Positions 29,529 through 45,583 of a DNA stretch of 58,883 nt are shown in pieces. A model generated the notes under the pieces. The model made no database searches, was not told the origin of the DNA, and saw only the letters and a list, made by a program, of their open reading frames with translations. The first letter of the stretch is position 1. The number at the start of each line of letters is the position of its first letter. A program made the translations under genes and the position numbers. The stretch lies in NCBI RefSeq assembly GCF_900243075.1, contig NZ_OEZH01000172.1:1-58883 (forward strand), written 5' to 3'. The DNA is from Clostridioides difficile. GTDB taxonomy: Bacteria > Bacillota > Clostridia > Peptostreptococcales > Peptostreptococcaceae.

Positions 29529-29540
29529 AAATTATCCCCC

Positions 29541-29747: not shown

Positions 29748-29769
29748 TTATCATTCCTCATTTATTCTT

Positions 29770-30096
29770 TCAAAAAGGTAACACATTCATTTCGCTAAGG
29801 AATAGATACAGATAAAAAATTGTAGTTAAAGCAAAGGCTATTGTAAAGAAGATAGATGTCTTTGTTTTGTTGTTTACTAACTGATAGGCAAAATTTGATA
29901 AACATGTCACCTGTGTCAGCAAACCCAACGCTGATTTTCCCATTTCGCCTAATGGTGCAAATTTAGTCATAACTATCCAGAGCAAAATCAAAACCCCAAT
30001 AGAGAAATTTGCACCTTGCATTTTAATTAAATTGTTTCTTTCATCTGATACCTCATTTTCTTTACGGCTCTTTGCTAAAATTTCTTCTTTGTTCAT
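29770..30096 (-). CDS. small membrane protein (DUF6442-like)
   Basis: 108 residues from the ATG at 30096 (MNKEEILAKSRKENEVSDER), chosen because AAAGGAG lies 7 nt upstream. Three predicted helices follow the charged N-terminus. The start and overall pattern resemble DUF6442 proteins, which commonly sit next to small XRE regulators. First gene of the three-gene operon that also encodes the 68-residue XRE protein. Confidence 0.65.
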   Translation of the reverse strand: MNKEEILAKSRKENEVSDERNNLIKMQGANFSIGVLILLWIVMTKFAPLGEMGKSALGLLTQVTCLSNFAYQLVNNKTKTSIFFTIAFALTTIFYLYLFLSEMNVLPF

Positions 30097-30119
30097 AATA
30101 ATCGCTCCTTTCTTGTGCA

Positions 30120-30188
30120 AAGTTTTCTTTGCACCTATAATATATCATCGCCAAGTTTTCTTGTCAATACATAATGCAAAGTTTTCTT
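30120..30188 (-). promoter_or_regulatory. promoter with three AAGTTTTCTT operator repeats
   Basis: On the minus strand, TTGACA (30167-30162), a 17-bp spacer and TATATT (30144-30139) make a strong sigma-A promoter for the DUF6442/XRE operon. The 10-mer AAGTTTTCTT (complement AAGAAAACTT, itself nearly dyad-symmetric) occurs three times at 30120-30129, 30153-30162 and 30179-30188. The middle copy overlaps the -35 box and the first copy lies in the leader, as expected for autorepression by the XRE protein. Confidence 0.7.
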
Positions 30189-30197
30189 GTCAAATTT

Positions 30198-30232
30198 AAA
30201 GCGTGCATTTCTATAAAAGATTTGCACGCTTT
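30198..30232. terminator. terminator-like hairpin
   Basis: AAAGCGTGCA (30198-30207) pairs perfectly with TGCACGCTTT (30223-30232). It sits between the tcpC fragment and the XRE operon promoter and would end transcripts entering from 30.3-30.7 kb. Confidence 0.55.
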
Positions 30233-30237
30233 ATAAT

Positions 30238-30324
30238 TCATCCTGCAATCTTCCAATTCCCGTCTTTATGAAGCACCAGTTCAAACTGTGAAATCTGTAT
30301 CCCCTTAGTCTGATTAACTACTAC
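30238..30324 (-). pseudogene. C-terminal fragment of a TcpC-like conjugation protein (Tn916 orf13)
   Basis: The minus strand reads 28 codons to a TGA stop (VVVNQTKGIQISQ, then FELVLHKDGNWKIAG). This is the typical end of TcpC/Orf13, a membrane protein of the Tn916-family conjugation channel. Everything upstream is lost: an in-frame TAA lies directly before it at 30325. It is on the opposite strand to the relaxase-xis-int genes, so the element has been rearranged as well as reduced. Confidence 0.65.
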
Positions 30325-30440
30325 TTACTGCGTCAATACAGGGTGTATGTGTAGGCATAAAAAAGGCATTGCCACTATAATGCTAGAAGCAACGCCGTTT
30401 ATAACATTTTGAATATATGCTTTGGAAAATTAGTATATTG

Positions 30441-30683
30441 CTATTCATCATCAAATACCGATTCGTTCATTTCTGGAAAATCCAGCAATTCAGAAACAGT
30501 CATATCCAAACCAATCGCAAGCTTGTGAAGTGTTTTCAGTTTTGGATTCTTCGTCTTACCTTTCATCAAGTTTTCTACTGTGGATTGCGTGATACCAGAT
30601 AAAGTAGCAAGTCTATTGATTGTGATTTTTCTTTCCTCACATAATTGTGTCAATCTTTTTATAATGGCTTCTGAATATGTCAT
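30441..30683 (-). CDS. XRE-family HTH regulator
   Basis: 80 residues: N-terminal helix, then a Cro/CI helix-turn-helix (ITINRLATLSGITQSTVENL, then KGKTKNPKLKTLHKLA) and an acidic tail. It is divergent from the DUF6809-like gene at 30818; the shared 134-bp region carries a perfect TAACGGT/ACCGTTA operator and two degenerate versions. It most likely represses that gene and itself. AAAGGAG lies upstream of the ATG. Confidence 0.85.
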   Translation of the reverse strand: MTYSEAIIKRLTQLCEERKITINRLATLSGITQSTVENLMKGKTKNPKLKTLHKLAIGLDMTVSELLDFPEMNESVFDDE

Positions 30684-30701
30684 ACGAAATCTCCTTTACT
30701 C

Positions 30702-30801
30702 GTGTACGGTTAACTCAAGTATATATCATTTTCAAACACGATATTAACGGCACACCATTGACACAGACAACAAAACAGTGTATACTAACGGTGTACCGTT
30801 A
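30702..30801. promoter_or_regulatory. divergent promoter region with TAACGGTGTACCGTTA operator
   Basis: For the plus-strand gene, TTGACA (30758-30763) and TATACT (30781-30786) are 17 bp apart. The perfect palindrome TAACGGTGTACCGTTA (30786-30801) begins on the last base of the -10 box. Related sequences are TAACGGCACACCATTG (30745-30760), just before and over the -35 box, and GTGTACGGTTAA (30702-30713), near the XRE start. The arrangement fits repression of both directions by the XRE protein. Confidence 0.7.
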
Positions 30802-30817
30802 AAAGAGGAGAGAATTT

Positions 30818-31450
30818 ATGTATGAAATTAGCGATATGTTGAAAAGAAGCAAATTCAGCAATATCCTGTCCTATTTAACATACGGCACAGGAGAAAATGA
30901 AGAAATGGTGGAAAGTTATGACTGTGCGATTGATGAATCCTATGAAACTTTCTTTGATAATATTGAAAACCTATATTCGGACGCTGACAGACAAGATAAC
31001 AAACTTTTCGATATTATATCAGAGTTTGCCTGTGTCCATGATGATATTTATTTAGAAGTGGGAATGCTGGTGGGCTTTCAATTATACAAAGAATTGACTG
31101 AAAAGTATGAACATGTAGATAAGGACATCACTGCCATTTTGGAAAAGAGAAAACAGCCACTCGATACAGAGCATGAAGTCAGCTCTGCTTTGGAATCGTT
31201 TTGTATGCACAGACTGAATACCGCTTTAGAGGAATCTATAAGGAAAGATAAAAGCTATCAGAAAAAGGACGAAGAAATTCATAAAGCAATTATGCGTATA
31301 GCTAAAATTGGTCTGACACATAACCAGTGGAAAACCGTAGACAGGGCTTTATCCGCCTGTAATGCAAGAAGCTCTGCCTATGGGGAAAAAGCATACATGC
31401 AAGGTTTCAAAGATGTTATAAATCTTATCATAGAAGCTATGGATCAATGA
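30818..31450 (+). CDS. DUF6809-like hypothetical protein
   Basis: 210 residues, mostly helical and acidic, without signal peptide or membrane segments. The N-terminal half (ISEFACVHDDIYLEVGMLVGFQLYKELTE) resembles DUF6809 proteins found on Firmicute integrative elements. No catalytic motif is visible. Its promoter carries the operator described at 30702-30801, so it is probably repressed by the divergent XRE protein. GAGGAGAG precedes the ATG. GC content is higher than the backbone. Confidence 0.6.
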   Translation: MYEISDMLKRSKFSNILSYLTYGTGENEEMVESYDCAIDESYETFFDNIENLYSDADRQDNKLFDIISEFACVHDDIYLEVGMLVGFQLYKELTEKYEHVDKDITAILEKRKQPLDTEHEVSSALESFCMHRLNTALEESIRKDKSYQKKDEEIHKAIMRIAKIGLTHNQWKTVDRALSACNARSSAYGEKAYMQGFKDVINLIIEAMDQ

Positions 31451-31511
31451 GAACACGTTCAGACATGAACATGTTTTCTCTTTATCCTCTTGATTACCCA
31501 GCACAGGAAAT

Positions 31512-31573
31512 AAAAAGCCCTGTCAAGAACCTGCCACCAAAGGTGGTGCGAAGCATTCTTGACTGGGCTTTTT
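31512..31573. terminator. bidirectional terminator between convergent genes
   Basis: AAAAAGCCC plus TGTCAAGAA (31512-31529) pairs with TTCTTGACT plus GGGCTTTTT (ending 31573), and an inner CCACC/GGTGG stem caps it. It serves the DUF6809-like gene and the 213-residue HTH gene. Confidence 0.85.
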
Positions 31574-31605
31574 ACTTTGCTGTATCTTCCGTGAGAGGAT
31601 AAGAG

Positions 31606-32247
31606 CTATTCTATGCCTTTCAAATCTCCAAAGCCTTCTATGGTTGGAACATTGGATAGACTTTCCCTGTCCTCGTCCACATGCCTGTTAAGTATGACTT
31701 TACCCTCAATAGGATTCCATTCATAAGGGTTGATATTCCTATGCCCCTCAATGGTTTCCCCGAACAGGTCAAGGCTGTACAAATCATCATATTTATCCAG
31801 CATATTCTGGAATTTATGACGCTGTATCAGTTGCTTGATAGGGTACAGGTCAGACGCCTGCCTGTCCTCTGAACCGATAAAGTCCATGATATATTCACGG
31901 AGCTTCTTTAACTCATATTCTTTCCATTCTTCCTCACTGTCAAAATAATTGTCATACTGTCCATGTGCAAGCTCTACATTCAATCGTTCCTCACGTTCCA
32001 GAAACTTTAAAATCTCCTGTTCCATATGGGAAGTGTTCTTCCATTCCCCAGACAGCAGTTCATTCGGTGTCACACCTAAAGCGCAAGTAATCTTCTCCAA
32101 TGTGTCAAAGGTGGGAAGATTAACACCTCTTTCAATCTTGGAAAGGCTCTGCATGTTGATTCCGATTGCGTCTGCCAGTTCCTGCTGATTCATGCCACGA
32201 AACTTCCTTACCCTCTGTATATTCTCCCCTAAAAGCAGATATTTCAT
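31606..32247 (-). CDS. XRE-family HTH regulator of the mobilizable element
   Basis: 213 residues. The first 65 form an XRE helix-turn-helix (GMNQQELADAIGINMQSLSK then IERGVNLPTFDTLEKI). The rest is acidic and has no recognised domain. It is divergent from the relaxase-xis-int cluster across the putative oriT, the position held by control genes in Tn916/ICEBs1-type elements, so it probably governs excision and transfer. The TGCTTA/TAAGCA palindromes at 32351-32403 are candidate operators. Confidence 0.75.
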   Translation of the reverse strand: MKYLLLGENIQRVRKFRGMNQQELADAIGINMQSLSKIERGVNLPTFDTLEKITCALGVTPNELLSGEWKNTSHMEQEILKFLEREERLNVELAHGQYDNYFDSEEEWKEYELKKLREYIMDFIGSEDRQASDLYPIKQLIQRHKFQNMLDKYDDLYSLDLFGETIEGHRNINPYEWNPIEGKVILNRHVDEDRESLSNVPTIEGFGDLKGIE

Positions 32248-32640
32248 GTTGTTATTCCTCGCTTTCTTGCTTATTTAAGCCTATCATACTTAATTTATTT
32301 AAAAATGTCAAGAAATATTATTGACAAATAAGGCTAATGAGGTTATTATATGCTTGGTTGATTGATTAAGCATAACAGCGTTAATTATCTGCTTACATAA
32401 GCATTGAAAAGAATTGTTTTCATTCTGAAAGCGTTAATATCAGACTTTCAGGATTGGAAAACGTGGTTTCCTAAAGTGGCTGGCTGGACGGGGCACGTCC
32501 CCCAGACGTGTTCTGGACAGACAGTTGCTTTAGGAAAGGAACGCCTTTAGGCGTTCCGGCAGGGCGCATAAGTAACACCGCCCTGCGTATACAGAACTGA
32601 TAATAGAAAACGGGCTTAAAATCAGCGTTTATCAAAGATT
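32248..32640. other. regulatory and transfer-origin region of the element
   Basis: No gene. From left to right: the leader of the HTH gene, palindromes TGCTT...AAGCA (32351-32372) and TGCTTACATAAGCA (32390-32403), and the hairpin-rich block at 32467-32586 interpreted as oriT. Clearly more GC-rich than the backbone. Confidence 0.55.
32467..32586. other. putative oriT/replication origin with nested hairpins
   Basis: Four perfect inverted repeats occur within 120 bp: TTTCCTAAAG (32467-32476) with CTTTAGGAAA (32528-32537); inside it CACGTC with GACGTG; GGAACGCC/GGCGTTCC across TTTA (32538-32557); and GCAGGGCG (32559-32566) with CGCCCTGC (32579-32586). The block directly precedes a MobT-type relaxase, the position of oriT next to orf20 in Tn916. 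The nick site cannot be named from the sequence alone. Confidence 0.6.
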
Positions 32641-33751
32641 TTGCAACGCACAAAAATGGTGCAAAGAAAGGAGCGATTATTTATAGCAAAACAGGAATTT
32701 TTAACTATCAAGATTGACTACATCAGCATTGTATTTGACACTGCAACGGCAGAGGAAGTCATACGGCGTGTCTTGGAACTGCCTGTTGATATTTTCGATA
32801 TCCAGTCGGCGAAAGTACAGCACAAGTCCTATCAGAGCGTCTATGCCATTGGGAGCATTAAAGTATTCGGCAATGCAAAGAAAAATGAGGATAACCCTTT
32901 CGGGCTTGGCTCTTATCTTGTGCTTAGTGGCATGGGGTGTGATGAAATCTTCCGCATACTGGATATGCACGGTCAGAGCTTCGGAGATTTGTTCAAACGG
33001 TGTGAGCGTTGGTTTCGTGACCGATTCCATTTCACAAGGCTTGACATAGCCATAGACGACAGGAACGAAGTGCCTTACTTCACAATCAAGCAGTTAAAGC
33101 GGAAATGTGAACGGGAAGAATATATTGCAAACAGCAACACCCACCGATTCAATGAGAGCAAGTATGAAGATTACAGCACTGCAAAGACGGTCTATATCGG
33201 TGCTGGCAAGTCTGGCATGTCCTATCGGTTCTATGACAAGGACAAAGAGGTCAGCATGAAGCATCATAGATGATATAGGGAGCTGGAAACGGACAGAAAT
33301 GCAGTTGCGTGATGAAAAGGCGCATACATTCGCTATGCTGTTCAAAGACAATCCCTTTGACTTGGGAAAGCTGGTATTTGACCTGCTGGCTGGAAGTCTG
33401 CGATTTGTAGTTCCCGACAAGACACAGAGCAACAAGAGCAGGTGGAAAACATGCCGTTTCTGGAAACGCTTCTTAGGGGCTGTTGAGCCTTTGAAACTTC
33501 ATGTAGAAACACCGCATAACACCCTGTTGGAAACCCAGCGCTGGCTCAAAGAGGGTGGCGTATTATCAGTGGTAAAGGCATTCCATTTCCTAGAAGTCAA
33601 TAAGGCATTGGGCGATTTGGAACGGGTGGAAGATATGCTGAAACAGGTCATATACAGTCCTGCGCTTGGCAACAAGCTCACAGGGCATTTATGCAGAATA
33701 CACAGGGAAGAACTGATACCCTGTGTGCAGTACGATACAAAGAAAGGTTAG
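32641..33751 (+). pseudogene. MobT-type relaxase / Rep_trans initiator, frameshifted
   Basis: Related to Tn916 Orf20 and ICEBs1 NicK (Rep_trans family, PF02486), which nick oriT for transfer and rolling-circle replication. The first part (to 33273) runs from FLTIKIDYISIVFDT through FTRLDIAIDDR to YRFYDKDKEVSM. The frame breaks near 33260-33270, and the rest (from DIGSWKRTEMQLRDEKAH to about 33751) continues in the +1 frame, consistent with one inserted base. No ATG has a proper ribosome site: AAAGGAG (32667-32673) is followed 9 nt later by ATA at 32683, suggesting a decayed start codon as well. Probably inactive. Confidence 0.8.
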
Positions 33752-33970
33752 GTGGTTCTTATAGAAAAAAGCAACAAGGATATTCCAGTATGGGAGCGTT
33801 ACACGCTGACCATAGAAGAAGCGTCACGCTACTTTCGCATAGGAGAAAATAAACTGCGGAAACTGGCAGAAGAAAACAAACATGCAGGCTGGCTCATTAG
33901 GAACGGTAACCGCATTCAGATAAAGCGGAAACAGTTTGAAAAAATCATAGATAAATTGGACGCTATCTAA
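33752..33970 (+). CDS. xis: excisionase (Tn916 Xis-like)
   Basis: 72 residues with the small winged-helix MerR/Xis pattern: [20 protein letters not shown] followed by [20 protein letters not shown] and a basic end. It closely resembles Tn916 Xis (about 67 residues), which bends DNA at the element ends and directs excision. The GTG at 33752 overlaps the ribosome site GGTGG, while the family start aligns with ATA at 33761, so the true start is uncertain. The gene otherwise looks intact, between the broken relaxase and broken integrase. Confidence 0.82.
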
Positions 33971-34048
33971 TGAAAATGAGCTTTGCATATGCTATCATAG
34001 TGTTAGTCGTATCAAGGCTCTTTCCAATACGGAAAGGAGCATGACAGC

Positions 34049-35239
34049 ATGTCAGAAAAGAGAAGAGATAACAAAGGTCGCATTTTAAAGACTGGAGAGA
34101 GTCAGAGAACAGACGGCAGATACTTATACAAATATATAGATACCTTTGGAGAACCGCAATCGGTGTATTCATGGAAACTGGTGGCTACGGACAGAGTGCC
34201 GAAAGGGAAACGTGACTGCGTATCGCTACGAGAAAAAGAAGCGGAGATACGCAAAGACCTAGAGGACGGAATAGACGCTGTTGGAAAGAAAATGACGCTG
34301 TGCCAGCTTTACGCCAAACAGAACGCCCAGAGGGGCAACGTGAAGAAAACCACACAGAAACAGCGTGAACAAGCTCATGGAGATACTGAAAGCGGACAAG
34401 CTGGGAGCAAGGAGCATTGACAGCATAAAACCGTCAGACGCTAAGGAATGGGCTGTCAGAATGAAAGAGAACGGCTACGCCTATCAGACCATTAACAATT
34501 ACAAGCGTTCGCTGAAAGCGTCATTTTACACCGCCATAGAAGATGACTGTGTGAGAAAGAACCCGTTCAATTTTGCGCTGAATACAGTGATTGAGGACGA
34601 TAGAAAGCCACGTGTTGCACTGACAGAGGAACAGGAAGAAAAGCTGTTGTCCTTTGTGGAGAGTGACAGGACATACCGCAAGTATTATGATGTGATTATC
34701 CTGCTTTTGAAAACGGGGCTTCGTATTTCAGAACTGTGCGGATTAACGGTCAGTGACTTGGACTTTGAGAGCAGGCTCATCAATGTAGACCACCAGCTAT
34801 TACGGAATAAGGAAGTGGGCTATTACATTGAAACGCCAAAGACCAAAAGCGGAGTGCGTCAAGTGCCAATGAGTGAGGAAACCTGCCAGACGCTTCAAAA
34901 GGTGGTGGCAGAGCGCAAGAACATACAGCCCATAGTGATTGACGGTTACCGTGATTTTGTATTTCTCAATCAAAAAGGCTATCCCATGACAGGTGCTTAT
35001 TATACTTCTACGTTTGGAAATCTCGTCAAGAAGTATAACAAGAGCCATGAGGACGCATTGCCGAACATCACACCTCATATCCTGCGCCACACGTTCTGTA
35101 CCTGTTTAGCAAACAAGAACATGAACCCAAAGAGCTTGCAGTATATCATGGGGCATTCCAACATCAATATCACTTTGAACCTGTACGCCATGCGTCACTG
35201 GATGGTGTAAAGGCTGAAATGGTAAGTCTGATAGCGTAA
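34049..35239 (+). pseudogene. int: Tn916-family tyrosine integrase with two frameshifts
   Basis: The arm-binding domain is intact (MSEKRRDNKGRILKTGESQR). The frame shifts near 34350-34370 (extra base between TTQ and the core domain, which resumes as LMEILKADKLGARSIDSIKP). The core keeps the catalytic residues: R in LKTGLRISELCG, K in TPKTKSG, and HILRHTF plus MGHSNI. A second shift near 35190 (one missing C in TACGCC-CAT) removes the catalytic tyrosine context, giving NLYAMRHWMV instead of a YAHASLDGVKAEM-type end; the original stop is TAA at 35237-35239. Net length matches Tn916 Int (about 400 residues). As written it cannot make a functional recombinase. Confidence 0.88.
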
Positions 35240-35242
35240 TAA

Positions 35243-35265
35243 TTTACCACTTATTTACCACTTTC
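35243..35265. repeat. Tn916-type integrase-arm repeat, copy 3 (right end)
   Basis: TTTACCACT and TTATTTACCACTT follow the original integrase stop directly; complement AAGTGGTAAAT repeated twice. Similar tandem sites lie at 28566-28583. This is the expected place for arm-type sites at the integrase end of a Tn916-like element. Confidence 0.5.
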
Positions 35266-35327
35266 CAAAGGCAAAACATGAGAATTTATGAGAAGAAACG
35301 TGAAGTATCTACCGATAGTAAAAATGC

Positions 35328-35357
35328 CCGTAAAGCCAATAAAACAAGGCTTTGCGG
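35328..35357. terminator. hairpin at the right end of the element
   Basis: CCGTAAAGCC (35328-35337) pairs with GGCTTTGCGG (35348-35357) with one G-T pair. No strong T-run follows on the plus strand. Confidence 0.4.
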
Positions 35358-35391
35358 ACATATAAGAATATATAAAAAGATAATCAAAAAC

Positions 35392-35981
35392 TTATTTTAA
35401 GTTTAATTTAATACCAAAATCAATCTCATATTTTAATACGAAGTCGGATATATTATTCATCATTTTAGCCATATTTTTATTTATAGCTTTTTTCCAAACA
35501 AAAGTATATCTATTGGCAGATGACTCTATTTTGTACCATCAATAAATAGAGTATCCTTTGAAATCTCTTTATTATCTCCAAGAAAGTTTGTAAACTGTGC
35601 AAACAAATTTTTGCTTACTTGTGAAAAATGAATACTACGAAATCTTGCAATTGTTGAATGGTCTGGAGCGGAGGCTCCGCCTAGAAGATACATAAAGTTA
35701 ATATCTCTTTTACATGCTTCTTCTATTTTTCTTGAAGAATAAATACAGTTCATATTTGCATATATTATAATTTTCAAAAGTTGTCTAGGGGTTACTCTAT
35801 TTCCTCTAATTCGAGAATAAGTCTTATATAACTTTTCTAAATTCATCTCCTCAATAATTTGACTTAATAACCTTACAGAATCATCTTTTGGAATCATATA
35901 ATCAATATTTAGTGGTAATTTAAATTGATAATTATCACCATAAGTAGTATAATCAATTTGTATAGTATTTTGTTTTGACAT
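35392..35981 (-). pseudogene. IS1182-type transposase, truncated and frameshifted (copy B)
   Basis: Starts MSKQNTIQIDYTTYGDNYQF and shows the DUF772 region of IS1182-family transposases (VTPRQLLKIIIYANMNCIYS, then SRKIEEACKRDINFMYLL and DHSTIARFRSIHF). At 35530-35535 one base is missing relative to copy A (CTATTTTG versus CTATTTTTG), shifting the frame after DGTK. The sequence then continues as IESSANRYTFVWKKAINKNM and stops at 35392. About 195 of an expected 450-550 residues survive. The 5' hairpin AATCCCAG/CTTGGGATT at 36000-36025 is shared with copy A. Confidence 0.82.
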
Positions 35982-36040
35982 ACAATTATTATACAAGAAT
36001 CCCAGGCTCTTTTGAACTTGGGATTTATTTTTTTTGTACA

Positions 36041-36082
36041 AAAAAGGGCGTAGCACTATTTTCTAGTGCGACAGCCCCTTTT
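36041..36082. mobile_element. terminal hairpin of IS copy B
   Basis: AAAAAGGGC and GCACTA pair with TAGTGC and GCCCCTTTT around a short loop. It lies just outside the 5' end of the truncated transposase and probably represents the IS terminus; it may also act as a terminator. It marks the right edge of the accessory island. Confidence 0.5.
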
Positions 36083-36575
36083 ATATAACTAAATAGGCAA
36101 GTAACTATCTATTAGAGATTAAGTAAGTGAGCCACTAGATATTAGAGGAGCAAATGAGCTTGCCATTAAGTACTTTAAGTAGTATAAGGAGTTATTTTCA
36201 TTTTTGGTAAATTACAAACTCGATATATTATAAAAATTAATCTACTGAAATGATTTTAATTAATCTGAAAATTATTTTTTATAAAAACATAAAAAGATAT
36301 AAGCTATATTAATTTGATTACTTTTGACAACTTTTTATGTTTTTATACAATTATATTTTTAATAACTCGTCAAAATGCCAAACATATATTACAATAGAGA
36401 TATAAGTTTTTTTATTGACAAATTGTGTTAAGATGGTTGAATATAATATGGCATAAATAATTACTTTTATTTATCAATGAAATGTATTTATTGTGTAGCG
36501 AAAAATAGTCAGATAGTATAGGCAATAACTGAAAATAAAAGCATTTATTGTTGTACATATGGAGGAGTTAGTTTT
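36083..36575. promoter_or_regulatory. intergenic and promoter region of the chemosensory operon
   Basis: About 490 AT-rich bp where the backbone resumes. Near 36415 a TTGACA is followed by TATAAT at 36442, but the 21-bp spacing is too long for a standard sigma-A promoter, so one or both may be chance. I see no SigD (flagellar) type promoter and no c-di-GMP riboswitch. A good GGAGG site precedes cheY. Confidence 0.35.
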
Positions 36576-36938
36576 ATGGAAAATAAAATTTTGATAGTAG
36601 ATGATGCTATTTTTATGAGGATGATGATTAAAGAAGCTCTGAGTAAAAGTGGCTATAATAATTTAGTAGAAGCAAATGATGGAGAAGAAGCTTGTAATAT
36701 ATTTAAAGATGAAAAGCCTGATTTAATGTTACTTGACATTACAATGCCGAAAAAAGATGGTTTAGAGGTGCTAAGAGAAGTAAAAAAGTTAGATTCAAAT
36801 GCTAAGGTTGTGATGTGTTCTGCAATAGGACAAGAAAATATGATTGTAGAAGCTATAAAACTTGGAGCATTAGATTTTATAGTGAAGCCCTTTAAAACAG
36901 ATACATTAGTCAAAGTTGTAAATAATGCCTTAAAATAA
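36576..36938 (+). CDS. cheY: CheY-type single-domain response regulator
   Basis: 120-residue receiver domain. Acidic pair (VDD, residues 8-9), phospho-acceptor in LMLLDITMPK near residue 54, switch residue in VVMCSA and KPF lysine near residue 104. It has no output domain. As first gene of the operon it is a likely substrate of the CheA kinase encoded 5 kb downstream. Whether it contacts a flagellar motor or another target is not shown by the sequence. Confidence 0.9.
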   Translation: MENKILIVDDAIFMRMMIKEALSKSGYNNLVEANDGEEACNIFKDEKPDLMLLDITMPKKDGLEVLREVKKLDSNAKVVMCSAIGQENMIVEAIKLGALDFIVKPFKTDTLVKVVNNALK

Positions 36939-37002
36939 AAATGTAAGTATACACTGATACAGTGAAAAGTACATAAATGCAACAATAAAGGGAGGGTTTT
37001 AT

Positions 37003-37620
37003 ATTATAAATTATTTAGAACTTGATGATGCTCATATAGATGCACTTAGAGAAATTGGTAATATAGGCTCTGGGAATGCAATTACTGCACTTGCATCCAT
37101 GATAAATAGTAATATAGAAGTATTAATACCTATGGTCAAGATACTTGAATATAATGAAGCGACAAATCTGCTTGGTGGTCCAGAAAACAAAGTAGTATGT
37201 ATTTTACTTGATATGAAAGGCGATATTAATGGAATGTTTATATTTTTGTTGGATGAATCAATAACTCAACTCATGTTAAGTTCTCTTTTTAATAAAGAAG
37301 AAGCTCTTTTGGACGAGATTGAAGAGGTTGAAATTTCAGCAATTAAAGAAATAGGAAATATTATGGCAAGCTCATATGTAAATGCTATTGCATCTATGTT
37401 AAACATGACTATAAGTATATCAGTTCCAGATATATGTATTGATATGGTTGGAGCTGTCTTAAATGTACCTATGATAAGATTTTCAGATGTGGGTGATAAA
37501 GTTTTATTTATAGAAAATAAGTTTAAAATGAGTGATAATTATTTTACTAGCCACATTTTGATGATTCCAGAAATGGGCTCACTTAGAGAAATATTAGTGA
37601 GATTGGGATTAGAAGTATGA
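37003..37620 (+). CDS. cheC: CheC-type CheY-phosphatase with a non-standard start codon
   Basis: About 205 residues. Two CheC phosphatase signatures are present: LREIGNIGSGNAITALAS at the N-terminus and AIKEIGNIMASSYVNAIAS (E...N pairs). The first ATG in frame (37099) lies inside the first motif, so it cannot be the start. Upstream there is no in-frame ATG, GTG or TTG; a strong AAAGGGAGGG site (36987-36996) is followed 6 nt later by ATT at 37003 and then ATA at 37006. I therefore infer initiation at AUU (or AUA). CheC dephosphorylates CheY-P and works with CheD in Bacillus. The TGA overlaps the cheD start (ATGA). Confidence 0.85.
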   Translation: MINYLELDDAHIDALREIGNIGSGNAITALASMINSNIEVLIPMVKILEYNEATNLLGGPENKVVCILLDMKGDINGMFIFLLDESITQLMLSSLFNKEEALLDEIEEVEISAIKEIGNIMASSYVNAIASMLNMTISISVPDICIDMVGAVLNVPMIRFSDVGDKVLFIENKFKMSDNYFTSHILMIPEMGSLREILVRLGLEV

Positions 37621-38102
37621 ATAGAGAAATAGTAGTAAACATTGCAGATATGAAGATAGCCTATAGACCAAATGTTTTGGTTACTTATGCACTTGGTTCT
37701 TGTGTAGGAGTCTGTTTGATAGATAAAGTAGCAGGAATTGGTGGAATGTTACATGTTATGTTGCCATATAGTAAAGATGCTATCAACATTGAAAATAAGT
37801 ATAAATTTGCTGATACAGGAATAAATGAACTCATTAAGTCTATGGAAAATATAGGTGCAAATAGAATATATATAAAAGCAAAAATTGCTGGAGGAGCTAA
37901 GATGTTTTTAGGAAATAGCAATTCATCAATTGCAAGTATAGGATATAGAAATGTTGAAGCAGTAAAGAAAACTCTTTTAGGACTAAATATTCCAATAGTA
38001 GCAGAGGACACAGGTATGAATTATGGAAGGACAATACGTTTTTATACTGAGACAGGCGAATTAATTGTAGATTCAATAAATAAAGGTAAAAAGAAAATAT
38101 AA
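37617..38102 (+). CDS. cheD: CheD chemoreceptor glutamine deamidase
   Basis: 161 residues with the cysteine-hydrolase triad of CheD: cysteine in ALGSCVGVCL, histidine in GGMLHVMLP, and a threonine further on in YKFADTGI. The enzyme deamidates glutamines on chemoreceptors and binds CheC. Its start overlaps the cheC stop by 4 bp, indicating translational coupling, which fits the known CheC-CheD complex. Confidence 0.92.
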   Translation: MNREIVVNIADMKIAYRPNVLVTYALGSCVGVCLIDKVAGIGGMLHVMLPYSKDAINIENKYKFADTGINELIKSMENIGANRIYIKAKIAGGAKMFLGNSNSSIASIGYRNVEAVKKTLLGLNIPIVAEDTGMNYGRTIRFYTETGELIVDSINKGKKKI

Positions 38103-38144
38103 CATAGATTTTATAGAGAGTATATTTTAGGTGGGAGGTATTAA

Positions 38145-38663
38145 ATGAGATTTCCAGATGACCCATATTTAGATTATAGGCTAGTTGATGAAGGAATTAA
38201 GTATCTAAAATTTAAAGTAGATGAGCAAGATTTTGGGATTGAACTTGAAAATGTAATAGAAATTATTGGAAATCAAGAAATTATATTTATTCCAGAACTC
38301 CCTACATATTCTAAAGGTATAATAAATCTAAGAGGAAAAATTATTCCAATAATAGATATGCGTTTGAGACTTAAAAAAAATGATTTAATTATTACCAATT
38401 GTACGTATATAGTAGTAATTGAAATAAAAGATTTAGTAGTTGGATTTGTGGTTGATAAAGTTGATGAGATAATAAGTTTAGAAAAAAGTCAAATATCACT
38501 TCCACCAAGGGTTACTCTCGAATATTCAGATTATTTTGTAAGCGGTATTGGAGAATTAGATAGTAAAATAATTACTTTACTAGATTTAGAAAAACTTTTG
38601 ACAGATAAAGACGAAATTTTAATAGACGAAGTAATTAATGAATATAATTGCACTATCATATAG
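38145..38663 (+). CDS. cheW: CheW coupling protein 1
   Basis: 172 residues with the CheW SH3-like double barrel, starting after an unusual 20-residue N-terminal extension. Family segments: LKFKVDEQDFGIELENVIEI, the PTYSKGIINLRGKIIPIIDM receptor/kinase contact region, and LVVGFVVDKVDEI. Couples the MCP to CheA. A second cheW follows cheA. GGGAGG lies 6 nt upstream of the ATG. Confidence 0.9.
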   Translation: MRFPDDPYLDYRLVDEGIKYLKFKVDEQDFGIELENVIEIIGNQEIIFIPELPTYSKGIINLRGKIIPIIDMRLRLKKNDLIITNCTYIVVIEIKDLVVGFVVDKVDEIISLEKSQISLPPRVTLEYSDYFVSGIGELDSKIITLLDLEKLLTDKDEILIDEVINEYNCTII

Positions 38664-38798
38664 CACAAGGGTATAACTATAAGGTTACTATAAAAATATT
38701 ACAAATGAAATATATGGAAATATAGTGGTATAATTATTAAGTACAAAAATTTTAAGTCATTAAAATTTGAATATATTATGTTTAAGAGAGGTTTGTAT

Positions 38799-39758
38799 AT
38801 GGAAAATAAGCAACAAGGAACAATTTTAGTTGTTGATGATAGTGTTCTAATGTGTGACTTAATAGATAAAGCACTTACAAAAGATAATTTTAATGTGAAG
38901 AAAGCATTTAATGCAATAGAGGCAAAAGAGTTTCTTGAAGAATTTATACCAGACATTATTTTGCTTGATATAATTTTACCAGATAACTCTGGTTTTGATT
39001 TTTGTAAGGACGTGAAATCTAGTGTTCGCACAGCAGATATACCTATAATCTTTATAACTTCAAAAAATGCAGATACAGATATAGTAAGGGGATTTGGAGT
39101 AGGTGCAATAGATTATATGGTAAAACCTTTTAGTATGACAGAATTAAAAGCTCGTATTATGGCTCATCTTGAAGTAAAGAAGTCTCAAGATAAATTAAAA
39201 AAGATAAATAAAGAACTAGAATCTTCTCTTGAAAAATTGAATAGACTCGTTGTAAGAGATTATCTTACAGGTCTTTACAATAGACGACACATAATTAATC
39301 AGCTTATGGAGCAAAGAAAAATTAATCAGTATAAGGAAACATCAATATCCCTTATTCTTGGTGATATTGATGATTTTAAGGTTATTAATGATACTTATGG
39401 ACATGATGCAGGGGATTTTGTGTTGACAGTAATATCAAGTATAATAAAAAAGAATTGTAGACAAATTGATACTGTATCAAGATGGGGTGGAGAAGAGTTT
39501 TTGATAATGCTTACAAATACTCCGATAGAAGGTGCTAAAATCCTTTCAGAAAGAATTCGTAAAGAGGTAAAGGAATTTGACTTCAACTATAAAGAAAATA
39601 AAATAAAATGTACTATTACTTTAGGGGTAGTAGAAGTAAACTCAAATATATCCTTAGAAGAAAACATATCCTTAGCAGATAAAGCGATGTATGAGGGTAA
39701 AAGTTTAGGAAAAGATTGTAGTGTAGTAAGTACAATGAAAGGATTAAAGAAGATATAA
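38799..39758 (+). CDS. REC-GGDEF response regulator (diguanylate cyclase, WspR/PleD-like)
   Basis: 319 residues. The receiver domain (about 1-125) has VDDS, phospho-acceptor in DIILLDIILPD, and KPFS; a coiled linker (about 130-155) and a GGDEF domain (about 160-315) follow. The active site reads RWGGEEF and is preceded 5 residues earlier by RQID, a complete RxxD inhibitory site, so an active, product-inhibited diguanylate cyclase is expected. Its place between cheW and the MCP suggests phosphorylation by CheA, giving c-di-GMP output from the chemosensory array. I chose the ATG at 38799 because AGAGGT lies just upstream; the ATG at 38778 lacks a ribosome site. Confidence 0.9.
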   Translation: MENKQQGTILVVDDSVLMCDLIDKALTKDNFNVKKAFNAIEAKEFLEEFIPDIILLDIILPDNSGFDFCKDVKSSVRTADIPIIFITSKNADTDIVRGFGVGAIDYMVKPFSMTELKARIMAHLEVKKSQDKLKKINKELESSLEKLNRLVVRDYLTGLYNRRHIINQLMEQRKINQYKETSISLILGDIDDFKVINDTYGHDAGDFVLTVISSIIKKNCRQIDTVSRWGGEEFLIMLTNTPIEGAKILSERIRKEVKEFDFNYKENKIKCTITLGVVEVNSNISLEENISLADKAMYEGKSLGKDCSVVSTMKGLKKI

Positions 39759-39783
39759 ACTTATTTTATAAAGGAGTACAAGT

Positions 39784-41487
39784 ATGAAAAGAGAAGTAAG
39801 GCTTTCTAAATTAGCAATTCTATTGCTGATTATAATAGTATTGGCTGTTCTAGCAGGGATTTTTTCTTCTATTTCATCTTATAAAGCATTTGAAAAAGTG
39901 GAAAAAAGTATTAGTGATATGAATAATTTGAGGACTCAAAGTCAGTATATAAAAGATGCAACTAGGGAAGTAAGTGATGTATTAAGAAGATACGTTTTTA
40001 CAGGTGAAAAAAAGGATAAAGATATTTATGAAAAAGAATTATATGGAAAAACAAGAGAGTCAGCTTTAAACAAGTTGGAAAGAATTGGTCTTACAAAGAG
40101 GGAGTCAAATAAAATCTTAGAAGCAAAAGAAATATCAGATTCTTTGGTGCCAACAGAACAAAGTGCTATAAAGGCGGTCGAAAGTAATGATAAGAGTACA
40201 GCTCAAAGTATAATTTTTGGTAGTAGTTATATAAACTCTCAAGAAAGAATGGATTCTTTAATAAATGAATTTCAAGAGGATATAGTTAATCGCTCAAATT
40301 CCGAAATTGTAGAAGTAAAAAAAGAATTGCAAAGTCTAATATTAAGAACAATATTTATACTTTCTCTCTTGATAATACTGACAATAATAGAATACATAGT
40401 AATAAAATTAAAGATAGTGATTCCTATTAATAAAGTAGAAGAACACTTTTCAAGAATTGCATCTGGAGACTTAAGAACAAGTATAGATGTTGAAGAAAGT
40501 AAATCTGAAATAGGAATGTTGGTGGGCTCTGTTAAAAAGATGCAAAGTATGCTTTTAAATTATATAGACCTTATAGATAGTACGTTGACTAGTATTGCAA
40601 AAGGAGATTTAAGAGTAGAGATAGACCAAGAATTCATTGGAGATTTTAAATCAATTAAAAAATCTTTAGAAAGTATAATAAACTCTTTCAATAGTGATTT
40701 TTCTGAAATAAACTTATCAGCAGAGCAAGTTGCAAGTGCATCAGAACAGGTTGCAGCAGGTGCACAAGCTCTTTCACAGGGTGCTACTGAACAAGCTAGT
40801 TCAGTAGAAGAATTAGCTTCCACAATTAATGAAATATCAGATGGAATTAAGAAATGTGCAGATAGTGCTAGCCTTGCATGTGAGGTATCTGACCAATCAG
40901 CGTTACAAGTTGGTTTTGGAAGTAGATGTATGGATGATATGATGACATCAATGGGCGAAATAAGTGAAAAGTCGAGTGAAATATCAAAAATAATCAAAAC
41001 AATAGATGAGATAGCATTCCAAACTAATATTCTTGCATTAAATGCAGCTGTTGAAGCAGCAAGAGCAGGTCAATATGGTAGAGGATTTGCAGTTGTAGCA
41101 GATGAAGTTAGGTCTTTGGCTGGTAAAAGTGCAAAAGCAGCTCAAAATACAGCGATTCTCATAGAAGAAGCTATTAAAACAGTAGAAAATGGTGTCAAAA
41201 TTGCTAAAGAGACTGCAAATGCGTTGGATTTAGTAGTCAATGGTGTAGAAAAAACTACTAATTATATTAATGGGATTTCTTCTTCTGTACATAGTCAAGA
41301 AGTAGCAATTACACAGATTTTATCTGGAATAGAGCAAATTTCTATAGTAGTCCAAATGAACTCAGCAACAGCAGAGGAAAGTGCCGCAGCTTCAGAAGAG
41401 ATGTCTGCTCAAGCACAAATTTTAAAAGAACTAGTAGAAAAATTTCATCTAAAAGAAAGTGAGATAAGAGAATCATCATGGATTTAA
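39784..41487 (+). CDS. methyl-accepting chemotaxis protein
   Basis: 567 residues. Membrane helix at about 10-30, an extracytoplasmic helical sensor domain of roughly 150 residues, a second helix at about 185-207, HAMP, and a cytoplasmic coiled-coil signalling domain. The hairpin tip reads EIAFQTNILALNAAVEAARA then GQYGRGFAVVADEVRSLA, the contact site for CheW and CheA. The tail lacks a CheR-tethering pentapeptide. This is the only MCP in the operon. The ligand domain looks like a four-helix bundle. GGAG lies 9 nt before the ATG. Confidence 0.92.
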   Translation: MKREVRLSKLAILLLIIIVLAVLAGIFSSISSYKAFEKVEKSISDMNNLRTQSQYIKDATREVSDVLRRYVFTGEKKDKDIYEKELYGKTRESALNKLERIGLTKRESNKILEAKEISDSLVPTEQSAIKAVESNDKSTAQSIIFGSSYINSQERMDSLINEFQEDIVNRSNSEIVEVKKELQSLILRTIFILSLLIILTIIEYIVIKLKIVIPINKVEEHFSRIASGDLRTSIDVEESKSEIGMLVGSVKKMQSMLLNYIDLIDSTLTSIAKGDLRVEIDQEFIGDFKSIKKSLESIINSFNSDFSEINLSAEQVASASEQVAAGAQALSQGATEQASSVEELASTINEISDGIKKCADSASLACEVSDQSALQVGFGSRCMDDMMTSMGEISEKSSEISKIIKTIDEIAFQTNILALNAAVEAARAGQYGRGFAVVADEVRSLAGKSAKAAQNTAILIEEAIKTVENGVKIAKETANALDLVVNGVEKTTNYINGISSSVHSQEVAITQILSGIEQISIVVQMNSATAEESAAASEEMSAQAQILKELVEKFHLKESEIRESSWI

Positions 41488-41543
41488 ATTATGAAATGCT
41501 ATATGGGAAATAGAAAATTATTTGTAGACCGTAGGTGATGAAT

Positions 41544-43670
41544 ATGAATTATATTGAACCGAGTATGAGACCAATGTTAGATATGTTTATATTTGAGACA
41601 AGTCTATTACTTGAACAATTAGATGAAATTATGATTCAAACAGAAAAAGAGAAAACATTTAGCCATAACAATATTAATGAAACTTTTAGAATAATGCATA
41701 CGATAAAAGGTTCAGCGTCTATGATGGGGTTAGACAATATAGCTGCTCTAGCACATAGTGTAGAAGATTTGTTTTATATCATACGTGAAGGAAAAATAGA
41801 AGTTTTAGACAATGACTTATTATTTGATTTAGTTTTTCAATCTTTGGATTTTATAAAATGTGATATAGGTAAGTTACAATCAGGAGATTGTATATCTTCT
41901 AATTACTTTAATTTTATCAAAGGAATTGAAGACTATGTAAGTACTTTGGAGTTATCAAATTCTATGAAATCAAAAGATAGTATAAGTTTAGAAAGTACAG
42001 ATGAGAAAGAAATAGTCGATTTAATTTTTTCATATAAAGAAGATTCTGATATAGTAAAAATAATCTTCGAACAAGGTTGTATGATGGAAAATGTAAGAGC
42101 TTTCATGCTTATTTTTGAACTTAGAGATTACTGTGAATTTCTAGAATTTTATCCTAAAGATGTAGAAACAAATGCAGAATCAGCAGAATATATTAAAAAT
42201 CATGGATTTTATTTACAGTTTATTGCTAAAGATGATAAGATAATGGTTTATAGAACTATACAAGATAATCTATATGTAAAAGAATATATAAATATTAGTG
42301 AAAAAGAGATAGGAATAAAAAATACGTTATATAATGATGAAGTAGAAAATAAATTAAAAGATAATAATGAGATAAGTACAGAGTATCAAAATATCTATAT
42401 AAAAGAAGATGAGTTACAAGAAAGCATTTTAAATGAAAAAATTGATATAGAAAAAAATAATCTAAACGAAGAAAATGAACACTTGCCAATAAGTAAGCAG
42501 AGTATTATGAGTGTAAATCTAGAAAAATTAGATTTGCTTCAAAATATAGTTGGAGAAATTGTAATTATGGAATCAATGGTTGTAAATAGTGTAAATTCTA
42601 CAGGTGTTGATATAGACAATTTTAATAAGGCAACAAGACAATTGCATAAGCTTACAGATGAATTGCAGGATATAGTAATGTCAATGCGTATGATTCAAAT
42701 TGGTGGTGTATTTCAAAAAATGCATAGAATTGTACGAGATATGAATAAAAAATTAGATAAAAATGTAGAGTTGATAACTATAGGAGCAGAGACAGAAGTA
42801 GATAAGAGTGTAATTGACAATTTAGCAGAACCCTTTATGCATCTTATAAGAAATGCTATGGACCATGCAATAGAACCTATTGAAGAACGTATAGCTAAAG
42901 GAAAAGAAAAAGTAGGAAAGATAGTTTTATCTGCTGAAAATTTAGGTGGAGAAGCTGTGATAAGTATTTCAGATGATGGTAGAGGTCTTATGAAAGATAA
43001 GATTTTAGCAAAAGCTAAGCAACAAGGTCTTCTTAAACATCAAAGCAGTGAATATACTGATGACGAGGTCAATTCTTTGATTATGACTCCAGGTTTTTCT
43101 ACAAAAGAATCTATAACTGAATTTTCTGGTAGAGGAGTAGGCATGGACATTGTCCGTAAAAGTATTGAAAAGGTTGGAGGCTCAATTGAAGTAAGAAGTA
43201 AACAAGATGAAGGCACAACATTTACTATAAAAATACCACTGACTCTTTCTATAGTAGAGGGTATGGAGTTTAAAGTTGGAGATTCACTATTTACTTTACC
43301 AATATCATCAATAAGGAGAACATTTAAGCTTACAGATTTAAATCAGATAATTGTAGAAAGTAATAAAACAGAGTTAATTATGATATATGGAGCATGTATT
43401 CCTATTATAAGGTTACATAAAATATATAATATTCAAACAGAGGTAACTAATTTGATGCATGGAAATATGATAATTATTGAAAATGAACATAAAGCAGCAT
43501 GTATTTTTGTTGATGAAATAATAGGAAATCAACAAGTTGTTGTAAAACCATTTCCAGTTTATTTTAACCGATTCAACATAAAAAATAATGGTTTATCAGG
43601 ATGTACAATACTTGGAGATGGAAGTATAAGCTTAATTATAGATGCAGATAACATTATGGAAATATATTAG
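41544..43670 (+). CDS. cheA: chemotaxis histidine kinase CheA
   Basis: About 708 residues. P1/HPt domain with phospho-histidine in IMHTIKGSASMMG near residue 50; a P2-like region with a long acidic linker (about 270-320); P3 dimerisation; P4 ATPase with NAMDHAIE, ISDDGRGL and GRGVGMDIV; and P5 CheW-like (FTLPISSIRRTF). There is no fused receiver domain, unlike WspE. The protein autophosphorylates under MCP control and should feed both CheY and the REC-GGDEF protein of the same operon. Start chosen at 41544, as AGGTGAT lies at a workable distance; a GTG at 41535 and ATG at 41538 are alternatives. Confidence 0.92.
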   Translation: MNYIEPSMRPMLDMFIFETSLLLEQLDEIMIQTEKEKTFSHNNINETFRIMHTIKGSASMMGLDNIAALAHSVEDLFYIIREGKIEVLDNDLLFDLVFQSLDFIKCDIGKLQSGDCISSNYFNFIKGIEDYVSTLELSNSMKSKDSISLESTDEKEIVDLIFSYKEDSDIVKIIFEQGCMMENVRAFMLIFELRDYCEFLEFYPKDVETNAESAEYIKNHGFYLQFIAKDDKIMVYRTIQDNLYVKEYINISEKEIGIKNTLYNDEVENKLKDNNEISTEYQNIYIKEDELQESILNEKIDIEKNNLNEENEHLPISKQSIMSVNLEKLDLLQNIVGEIVIMESMVVNSVNSTGVDIDNFNKATRQLHKLTDELQDIVMSMRMIQIGGVFQKMHRIVRDMNKKLDKNVELITIGAETEVDKSVIDNLAEPFMHLIRNAMDHAIEPIEERIAKGKEKVGKIVLSAENLGGEAVISISDDGRGLMKDKILAKAKQQGLLKHQSSEYTDDEVNSLIMTPGFSTKESITEFSGRGVGMDIVRKSIEKVGGSIEVRSKQDEGTTFTIKIPLTLSIVEGMEFKVGDSLFTLPISSIRRTFKLTDLNQIIVESNKTELIMIYGACIPIIRLHKIYNIQTEVTNLMHGNMIIIENEHKAACIFVDEIIGNQQVVVKPFPVYFNRFNIKNNGLSGCTILGDGSISLIIDADNIMEIY

Positions 43671-43682
43671 GGGATTTAAAGT

Positions 43683-44123
43683 ATGTCTAAAGATGAAATT
43701 ATCAAACAAGTATTAACATTTTATGTTAATGATGTTATTTATGGAATAGAATTAAAAAATGTGATTGAGACCATAAGATTTCAATCAATAACATATGTAC
43801 CATGTCTTCCAGCGTATATAAGTGGAATTATTAATTTACGAGGAAGAATAATACCAGTTATTAATATACATATAAAATACAATCTTCCTGAAACTGATTA
43901 TAACGAAAGAACATGTATAATAATTACAGAGGTTGATGAGTATCAAGTTGGAATTATTGTAGATAAAGTTGTTGATGTTATACCTATAGATAATTTAAAT
44001 TTATTAGAGACAACTGATTCTAGCAACATAAATATTAATAAAGATATAAAAGAAATTGCAAAAGTTGGAGATAATTCTATACTAATTTTAGATATTCAAA
44101 AGTTTTTGATTAATAGCATGTAG
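43683..44123 (+). CDS. cheW: CheW coupling protein 2
   Basis: 146 residues, a standard-length CheW: VLTFYVNDVIYGIELKNVIE, PAYISGIINLRGRIIPVINI and YQVGIIVDKVVDVI. It starts 12 bp after the cheA stop. With the longer CheW upstream this gives two coupling proteins for a single visible MCP, a trait shared with Wsp-type systems. Confidence 0.92.
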   Translation: MSKDEIIKQVLTFYVNDVIYGIELKNVIETIRFQSITYVPCLPAYISGIINLRGRIIPVINIHIKYNLPETDYNERTCIIITEVDEYQVGIIVDKVVDVIPIDNLNLLETTDSSNININKDIKEIAKVGDNSILILDIQKFLINSM

Positions 44124-44158
44124 TTAGTTTTGATAAATTAGCAGGAGGAAGTTTTTGC

Positions 44159-44962
44159 ATGATAAAGCTCACTGATGAAGAATTTATAATTCTTGTAAAC
44201 CATATAAAAAAAGAATATGGAATTGATTTAAGTAAAAAAAGGGCATTAATTGAAGGGCGCTTATACAATACAATGATAGATAGAAAATTTAGCTCTTTTA
44301 GTCAGTACACGAATCTATTATTCAAAGATAAGACAGGAAATGAAGCTATAAACTTAATAAATAGATTGAGTACCAATCATACATTTTTTATGAGAGAACC
44401 TCAGCATTTTGAGTTTATACATAATAGTATACTTCCTTTTTGGGAAGAAAATAATAAACTAAGAAACTTGAATATATGGAGTGCAGGCTGTTCTAGTGGA
44501 GAAGAAGCATATTCAATAGCTATGACTTTAGATGATTATTTTGGTTTTAATAGAGATTTGTGGAATATTAAAATTATAGCTACAGATATTTCAATGAACT
44601 CACTTGAAAAAGCTAAAAGAGGTATATACACAGAATCAAATGTTAACAATGTTTCTGAGCTATGGAAGAAGAAGTATTTCATAGATAACAAAGATGGAAC
44701 ATTTAAAGTTTGTGATAAGATTAGAAAAAGTGTAATTTTCAAGCCATTTAATTTAATGAATGATTTTTCATATCAACATTTTGATTTAATTTTTTGTAGA
44801 AATGTTATGATTTATTTTGATTTAAAAACTAGGGAAGAACTTATAAATAAATTTTATAATGTAACCAAAAAAGATAGCTTTTTGTTTGTAGGACATGCAG
44901 AGATAATTAACAGAAGTAATACTAAATATAAATATGTAAAACCTGCTATCTATAAAAAATAA
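44159..44962 (+). CDS. cheR: CheR chemoreceptor methyltransferase
   Basis: 267 residues. N-terminal helical domain, then an AdoMet-dependent methyltransferase domain with NIWSAGCSSGEEAYSIAM (AdoMet-binding loop), IIATDIS, the DLIFCRNVMIYF active-site motif and a FVGHAE end. It methylates receptor glutamates. AGGAGG lies upstream of the ATG. Works against CheB encoded next. Confidence 0.93.
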   Translation: MIKLTDEEFIILVNHIKKEYGIDLSKKRALIEGRLYNTMIDRKFSSFSQYTNLLFKDKTGNEAINLINRLSTNHTFFMREPQHFEFIHNSILPFWEENNKLRNLNIWSAGCSSGEEAYSIAMTLDDYFGFNRDLWNIKIIATDISMNSLEKAKRGIYTESNVNNVSELWKKKYFIDNKDGTFKVCDKIRKSVIFKPFNLMNDFSYQHFDLIFCRNVMIYFDLKTREELINKFYNVTKKDSFLFVGHAEIINRSNTKYKYVKPAIYKK

Positions 44963-45001
44963 AAGAGTAGTTTTGATATATGATTTTGTGGAGGCGGTAG
45001 T

Positions 45002-45583
45002 GTGGAACATTTTAATAATATGGTGATTGCTATAGGTGCATCTGTAGGTGGTACAGAGGCAATACTTGAAATTATAAAAGACTTACCAAAATCGACACCA
45101 GGGATTGTTGTAGTTCAACATATGCCAGCTATGTTTACTTATATGTATGCACAACGGCTTGACAAGCAGTGTATTATGAATGTAAGAGAAGCTAAAAATA
45201 ATGACAGAGTCGAACAAGGAACTGTACTAATTGCACCTGGAGATTATCAGATGAAATTATGTGTGGATAAAGAAGGATATTATGTAACTTGTGAAAAAGG
45301 TGAAAAAATAAGTGGTCATTGTCCATCAGTAGATGTTTTGTTTGATTCAGTTGCAGAAGTAGCAGGTAAAAATTCAATAGGAATAATACTTACAGGTATG
45401 GGTTCTGATGGAGCAAATGGACTTTTAAAAATGAAAGAAAGTGGTTCATTTACAATTGGACAAGACGAAAATTCCTGTATAGTATATGGAATGCCAATGG
45501 TGGCTTTTGATAGGGGTTCTGTTGTGTTACAGTTACCACTTAATGAAATTTCAAACTGTTTGATAAGACATATTAATATTTAA
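45002..45583 (+). CDS. cheB: CheB methylesterase lacking its receiver domain
   Basis: 193 residues corresponding only to the catalytic domain: nucleophile serine in IGASVGGTEA, histidine in VVVQHMPAMFT, and aspartate in ILTGMGSDGA. The usual N-terminal receiver (about 120 residues) and linker are absent. The GTG start at 45002 is preceded by GGAGGCGG and nothing receiver-like lies upstream, so this is the native architecture rather than truncation. Activity is then not under direct CheA phosphorylation, or needs CheC/CheD or CheY instead. It is the last gene of the operon. Confidence 0.9.
   Translation: MEHFNNMVIAIGASVGGTEAILEIIKDLPKSTPGIVVVQHMPAMFTYMYAQRLDKQCIMNVREAKNNDRVEQGTVLIAPGDYQMKLCVDKEGYYVTCEKGEKISGHCPSVDVLFDSVAEVAGKNSIGIILTGMGSDGANGLLKMKESGSFTIGQDENSCIVYGMPMVAFDRGSVVLQLPLNEISNCLIRHINI

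Follow-up and report, generated by a model that had tools for sequence, protein, structure and literature searches.

A diguanylate cyclase gene within the only chemosensory operon found in a Clostridioides difficile genome, a candidate second output of a flagellar-type system

Can a single chemoreceptor address both a flagellar motor and a second-messenger pathway? The question is raised by a locus of Clostridioides difficile in the 58,883-nucleotide contig NZ_OEZH01000172.1 (assembly GCF_900243075.1), hereafter the window. Between positions 36576 and 45583, ten genes on the plus strand follow one another as cheY, cheC, cheD, cheW, a gene for a REC-GGDEF diguanylate cyclase, mcp (encoding a methyl-accepting chemotaxis protein, MCP), cheA, cheW, cheR, and cheB. 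An initial annotation had interpreted this operon as Bacillus-type adaptation merged with a Wsp-like output of cyclic di-GMP (c-di-GMP), with CheA phosphorylating both CheY and the cyclase. All of the genes it named are present in one operon, and its observation stands; its class framing, both Bacillus-type and Wsp-like, does not. We think it somewhat probable that the operon encodes the sole flagellar chemotaxis system of the organism, built on a clostridial CheA of neither the F1 nor the Wsp type, with a genus-specific second output through the REC-GGDEF protein. F1 denotes the Bacillus-type flagellar class, and F7 the class of enteric CheA.

Genome-wide profile searches returned one MCP, one CheA match, and three CheW-type domains (the two CheW proteins and the domain of CheA itself), and no second CheA or second MCP was found in them; the operon therefore looks like the genome's sole chemosensory system. 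All eight Clostridioides genomes carry FliM, and the only CheA found, accompanied by CheY, lies in a FliM-bearing genome, as would be expected of a flagellar chemotaxis system. In a sample of 198 genomes of the order, 117 carried CheA and FliM, 73 neither, seven FliM alone, and one CheA alone (G127, 83% complete). The che clusters of several relatives of this CheA (L022, L052, L062, and L111) adjoin flagellar genes. A published account lists a single chemoreceptor with cheA, cheY, cheR, cheB, two cheW, cheC, and cheD, nine genes that do not include the cyclase; it reports an operon that is complete throughout C. difficile apart from the non-motile clade 5, and functional genetics of the che genes as not yet described in 2023 (PMC10098170).

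The cyclase is a fixed part of this operon. Gene order, with REC-GGDEF inside, is identical in all eight Clostridioides genomes (in L014 up to a contig edge after the second cheW), so chance is not an issue. The cyclase is under strong purifying selection, with a mean pairwise ratio of nonsynonymous to synonymous substitution rates (dN/dS) of 0.088 over the 28 mutually non-independent genome pairs (0.067 in the GGDEF part and 0.140 in the receiver part); the corresponding means are 0.081 for the MCP, 0.095 for CheD, 0.117 for CheY, 0.126 for CheC, 0.174 for CheA, and 0.193 and 0.269 for the two CheW proteins. CheR and CheB share 87–94% and 85–94% identity, respectively, with their counterparts in six other genomes of the genus. 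The GGEEF and RxxD sites, described as intact in the initial annotation, are conserved in all eight genomes, with RxxD five residues before GGEEF; the catalytic residues of the receiver are conserved in all eight as well.

The linker between the two domains is equally constant: the distance from KP to DxLT is 45, and L, L, L, and V stand at successive seventh places in all eight genomes. Discrete linker lengths in steps of seven, with leucines at every seventh place, have been reported for REC-GGDEF enzymes, and the heptad pattern is described for phospho-switched members (PMC8041772). Eighteen further clostridial REC-GGDEF proteins could be measured (the remaining fetched proteins are without a KP-to-DxLT pattern), and ten of them have a distance of 31 or 52, which differs from that in Clostridioides by a multiple of seven; the KP pattern is unreliable for the linker length of WspR. 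The receiver residues, GGDEF, RxxD, and heptad-spaced linker expected of a phospho-activated REC-GGDEF enzyme are present, and the protein is predicted to be active. It matches the solved REC-GGDEF enzymes DgcR (6zxm, E 1.9e-42) and WspR (3bre, E 6.2e-38) across receiver and GGDEF domain and shares the heptad-type linker with them, and it matches PleD in two stretches (E 5.9e-51). These enzymes differ from it in their kinases, and PleD also in having two receivers. The gene is presumably CD0537.

To which class does the chemosensory system belong? A tree of the CheA core was inferred with IQ-TREE from 73 of 167 rows picked for spread (one of two L064 CheA proteins was omitted). Clostridioides CheA falls within a clostridial clade (support 100/99, 41 rows), near a clade that holds enteric CheA, and apart from the 12 F1 rows, designated by flagellar-operon context, and the three WspE rows. 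FastTree with all 167 rows also separates it from both. Approximately unbiased (AU) tests reject a grouping with the 12 F1 rows (p = 2.99e-8) and a grouping with WspE (p = 0.00106); the WspE rows sit on long branches, so the latter test is weaker. By its phylogeny, then, this CheA is a member of a clostridial clade related to enteric CheA and is neither F1 nor Wsp. The initial annotation had left its placement between the alternative-function (ACF)/Wsp and the F classes: ACF/Wsp and F1 are rejected, and a relation to enteric CheA emerges. CheC and CheD accompany F1, same-family, and other clostridial CheA clusters; their presence is therefore ordinary rather than specific to F1.

The signalling domain of the MCP points in the same direction. 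It aligns without gaps to one Kosakonia and one Janthinobacterium receptor and lacks the 14+14 extra residues of two WspA references, so that its length is enteric (36H-like) and not 40H; one MCP without a recognised tip was dropped from this comparison. The cyclase itself is not joined with WspR in a 37-row tree whose deep branches are weak.

Three known kinds of system come closest. Like the Wsp references (L193, Pseudomonas; L194, Pandoraea; L195, Burkholderia), the operon clusters an MCP, CheA, CheR, CheB, CheW, and a REC-GGDEF protein with GGEEF and RxxD. WspE has a receiver, whereas no C-terminal receiver was found in Clostridioides CheA by Pfam; this domain is present in all three WspE references. 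Likewise, Wsp CheB carries a receiver and the Clostridioides CheB has none in the Pfam scan, Wsp CheR has 432–481 amino acids against 267 here, and CheY, CheC, and CheD are absent from the Wsp stretches. With the clostridial F1 systems, in which CheB-CheA-CheW-CheC-CheD lie in a flagellar operon, the present operon shares the adaptation proteins CheC and CheD; it differs from them in its CheA, its location outside the flagellar region, the receiver-less CheB, and the cyclase. The nearest CheA proteins belong to che clusters of gut Clostridia (Oscillospiraceae and others; L022, L024, L025, L102, L111, and L127). A receiver-less CheB is common to L024, L025, L028, L060, and L130 of this nearest clade. 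Two of the clusters, L022 and L111, adjoin several flagellar genes; others adjoin only a short open reading frame (ORF) resembling part of a 604-amino-acid ORF of the Clostridioides flagellar region. Unlike the Clostridioides operon, these clusters have another gene order and hold no REC-GGDEF gene.

A cyclase in a che cluster is rare in our sample. REC-GGDEF genes occur in the same-strand cluster of 12 of 165 scanned CheA genes, a count that omits loci L001-L012, L092-L100, L181, L182, and later short loci from Wsp genomes: eight are from Clostridioides, three are references selected beforehand as Wsp systems, and one is from elsewhere. In an order-wide search, full-length matches to the cyclase outside the genus have at most 39% identity among the matches listed. 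No study of a link between chemotaxis and this cyclase was found in the open-access literature, subscription papers being outside the search. What stands out is that the sole flagellar-type che operon holds a diguanylate cyclase gene that is strongly conserved and specific to the genus.

With one receptor and one CheA alongside CheY and a conserved cyclase, a split output is plausible. On the reading that we favour, the MCP and the two CheW proteins would control CheA. Phosphorylated CheA would pass phosphate to CheY, which would act on the motor and from which CheC would remove it, and would also phosphorylate the REC-GGDEF protein. Phosphorylation would shift the coiled-coil linker of the cyclase and switch on c-di-GMP synthesis, with product inhibition at RxxD as a ceiling. 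CheR, CheD, and the receiver-less CheB would adapt the receptor; as CheB has no receiver, the usual feedback from CheA to CheB would be missing. The c-di-GMP formed would act slowly, for example via a riboswitch, against flagella and in favour of settled life.

Several observations bear on this output pathway. That c-di-GMP governs toxin, pili, and flagella in this species, as the initial annotation had it, is published: c-di-GMP lowers flagellar and toxin expression and raises type IV pili (PMC6366702), and it is reported to repress 37 genes of chemotaxis and the flagellum (PMC6200980). In the flagellar region of the genome, a c-di-GMP-I riboswitch was detected at L181:1996-2086 (80.4 bits), about 22 kb before the FliM gene on the same contig, and the riboswitch Cd1 has been located just upstream of flgB (PMC10889297). 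A riboswitch inside the window was considered and rejected: none was found there with Rfam at gathering scores, and the one detected is in the flagellar region instead. Swimming is reported to involve modulated velocity rather than tumbling (PMC10889297) and back-and-forth runs (PMC8333305). Taken together with the riboswitch and expression data, this behaviour suggests that the cyclase route is probably slow and runs via gene expression. In this way, swimming and the change to a settled life may both come under the control of one receptor.

Other observations weigh against a cyclase driven by CheA, or against its importance. Outside the genus and the Wsp references, only 1 of 154 CheA genes has a clustered REC-GGDEF gene (the 154 include one identical pair; 5 kb of flanking sequence is available on either side of 114, and for the other 40 a more distant cyclase may have escaped detection). 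The single case is a Zoogloea contig (L171) with flagellar-type genes, an MCP, and a receiver between REC-GGDEF and CheA; the REC-GGDEF gene lies upstream of the flagellar-type genes and the che cluster, on the same strand. The initial annotation had held that a CheA firmly in a flagellar class, together with absence of the GGDEF gene from the operon in relatives, would refute its reading. The second part holds, as beyond the genus and the Wsp references this case is the only che cluster with the gene; the first does not, since the phylogeny gives CheA no firm place in any named flagellar class. The distances in the other 8 of the 18 clostridial linkers (27, 28, 34, and 55) are out of phase. 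Many distant members of the CheA clade lie beside hybrid kinases and are second systems in genomes with an F1-like CheA; the wider clade therefore combines different functions. The genome contains 32 GGDEF matches, and this cyclase may therefore contribute little; for strain 630, 18 confirmed or putative diguanylate cyclases have been listed (PMC6366702). Only one PilZ match was found in the genome, within a 773-amino-acid frame; with no small PilZ protein seen, a fast PilZ motor brake is not evident. A scan of 400 bp upstream for the SigD pattern gave no match in the window and matches in two of eight genus genomes (L018 and L019), which rules out SigD control via such an upstream motif. Finally, intergenic spacing in the operon ranges from -4 to 135 bp, and the widest gap lies directly before the REC-GGDEF gene. 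It contains a TATAAT at 38729-38734 that is kept in 8 of 8 genomes, the rest of the gap being variable. This is possibly an internal promoter for cyclase-mcp-cheA-cheW-cheR-cheB, and the cyclase may thus head a separate transcript.

The last point bears on an alternative that treats the cyclase as a mere passenger of the che transcript: some other histidine kinase would serve its receiver, or the enzyme would be active when unphosphorylated, and the linkage would couple expression only. The conserved TATAAT is in line with this, as is the absence of the cyclase from almost every che cluster examined in relatives. Yet its position is unchanged in the eight genus genomes, the receiver residues and the switch-type linker have been retained, and the ten operon proteins include no other kinase; on balance we judge a passenger role unlikely, if still to be reckoned with. 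Alternatively, the cyclase might reside at the receptor array, where its receiver would drain phosphate from CheA or its product would form a local pool of c-di-GMP. There is a precedent in Pseudomonas aeruginosa, in which a phosphodiesterase that lowers c-di-GMP is dependent on CheA and on the phosphorylation state of that kinase (PMC3861689), but the intact and strongly constrained GGDEF domain speaks against a mere phosphate sink, and we see such a role as improbable. Least probable of all is an alternative-function system of Wsp/ACF type without a motor role: REC-GGDEF and two CheW proteins in one operon, and the hybrid-kinase-associated second systems of other Clostridia, are what it would predict, but the CheA is set apart from WspE, is the only one found in a flagellated genome, is accompanied by CheY, CheC, and CheD, and belongs to an operon reported as complete in C. 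difficile save for a non-motile clade.

How did the genus come by this operon? The CheA rows nearest to Clostridioides are those of Oscillospiraceae and other Clostridia (100/96, 16 rows) and not those of the rest of its own family, the Peptostreptococcaceae. A constraint joining five same-family CheA proteins with Clostridioides was rejected (p = 0.0036), for a group named after the tree was seen. By contrast, Clostridioides FliM groups with seven FliM proteins of its own family (100/100), apart from eight of other families, seven of them from genomes whose CheA lies in the nearest clade (the CheA of G175 is unplaced). CheA with kin in other families, while FliM stays with its own, suggests a lateral gain of the operon; either this or differential loss would fit, and the long branches in the FliM tree, for which the program gave a warning, leave the origin reading suggestive only. 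CheC and CheD trees did not place the source of the Clostridioides copies. FliM is short and divergent in Clostridioides (L182:3835-4716; 293-297 amino acids) and in several genomes of its family (L231-L237), with scores of 62-88 bits against about 200 or more in same-family genomes whose CheA is F1-like. As a tentative scenario, a possibility more than an expectation, the ancestor of the genus would have taken the che operon from other gut Clostridia, tied it to its own unusual motor, and inserted REC-GGDEF, so that one receptor and CheA drive both motor and c-di-GMP.

The features of the locus are collected in Table 1.

Table 1. Coordinates in the window of the chemosensory operon and its upstream region
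Feature	Positions	Strand	Basis
Upstream region	36239..36575	+	genus-conserved blocks (alignment, 8 genus members)
CheY, single receiver domain	36576..36938	+	Pfam PF00072
CheC, CheY-P phosphatase family, very likely ATT start, two CheC matches	37003..37620	+	Pfam PF04509, two stretches
CheD, receptor glutamine deamidase family	37617..38102	+	Pfam PF03975
CheW, first copy	38145..38663	+	Pfam PF01584
REC-GGDEF diguanylate cyclase (predicted), 319 aa, GGEEF and RxxD intact, heptad linker	38799..39758	+	start by Shine-Dalgarno
MCP, HAMP and HAMP_2 matches, 36H-like signalling domain	39784..41487	+
CheA, P1-P2-P3-P4-P5 (Hpt, P2, dimer, ATPase, CheW domains)	41535..43670	+	Pfam
CheW, second copy	43683..44123	+	Pfam PF01584
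CheR receptor methyltransferase, 267 aa	44159..44962	+	Pfam PF01739 and PF03705
CheB, methylesterase domain alone	45002..45583	+	Pfam PF01339 only

Two of the starts depart from the ORF list or from the first available codon. The listed CheC, beginning at 37099, is too short; because a GGGAGGG-type site precedes the codon and the start region is kept in 8 of 8 genus members, the real start is very likely the non-standard ATT at 37003, and extension to this codon yields the two CheC matches in Pfam. A truncated cheC is thereby ruled out, the ORF list simply beginning too late; around this start (37003-37102), ORF callers limited to ATG, GTG, and TTG lose the first CheC motif. The cyclase is taken to start at ATG 38799 and not at 38778, since the Shine-Dalgarno sequence sits between the two. 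The 4HB sensor match of the MCP is weak, below the Pfam cut-off.

Upstream of cheY there are two sigma-70-like promoter candidates, at 36324-36351 (the second hexamer is absent in L018 and L019) and at 36367-36395; a scan for the promoter consensus gave 65 sites against 65.2 in shuffles, so there is no excess. The main text of a SigD-regulon paper is without the tags CD0533, CD0537, and CD0538 and without cheA (PMC3865298). In another C. difficile paper, CD0533, CD0535, and CD0540 are given as lower in germinating spores.

Further upstream, positions 23785-36082 hold about 12.3 kb of DNA where the congeners L014-L017 have some 0.4-1.0 kb of other DNA. This stretch encodes Rep_trans, a phage-type integrase, and a transposase fragment; it stops about 0.3-0.5 kb short of cheY, and the conserved block ahead of the operon is undisturbed. 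This mobile DNA matched seven plasmid records, two of C. difficile (one at 91.5% over 4% of the query) and five of Enterococcus, and had no match in the phage collection. A 1037-amino-acid protein encoded at 10946-14059, some 22 kb ahead of the operon, has two GGDEF matches and one EAL domain.

A cyclase fixed across the genus in the only che operon is a concrete candidate for one of the inputs that set c-di-GMP levels in C. difficile, with a candidate route from chemoreceptor through CheA and c-di-GMP to flagella, toxin regulators, and pili. If the acquisition scenario is true, Clostridioides would possess a flagellar, non-Wsp chemosensory system with a built-in cyclase, a slow memory that would choose between swimming with toxin production and settling. 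If the split output is real, it would show that diguanylate cyclase outputs are not confined to the Wsp family but can also belong to flagellar chemotaxis.

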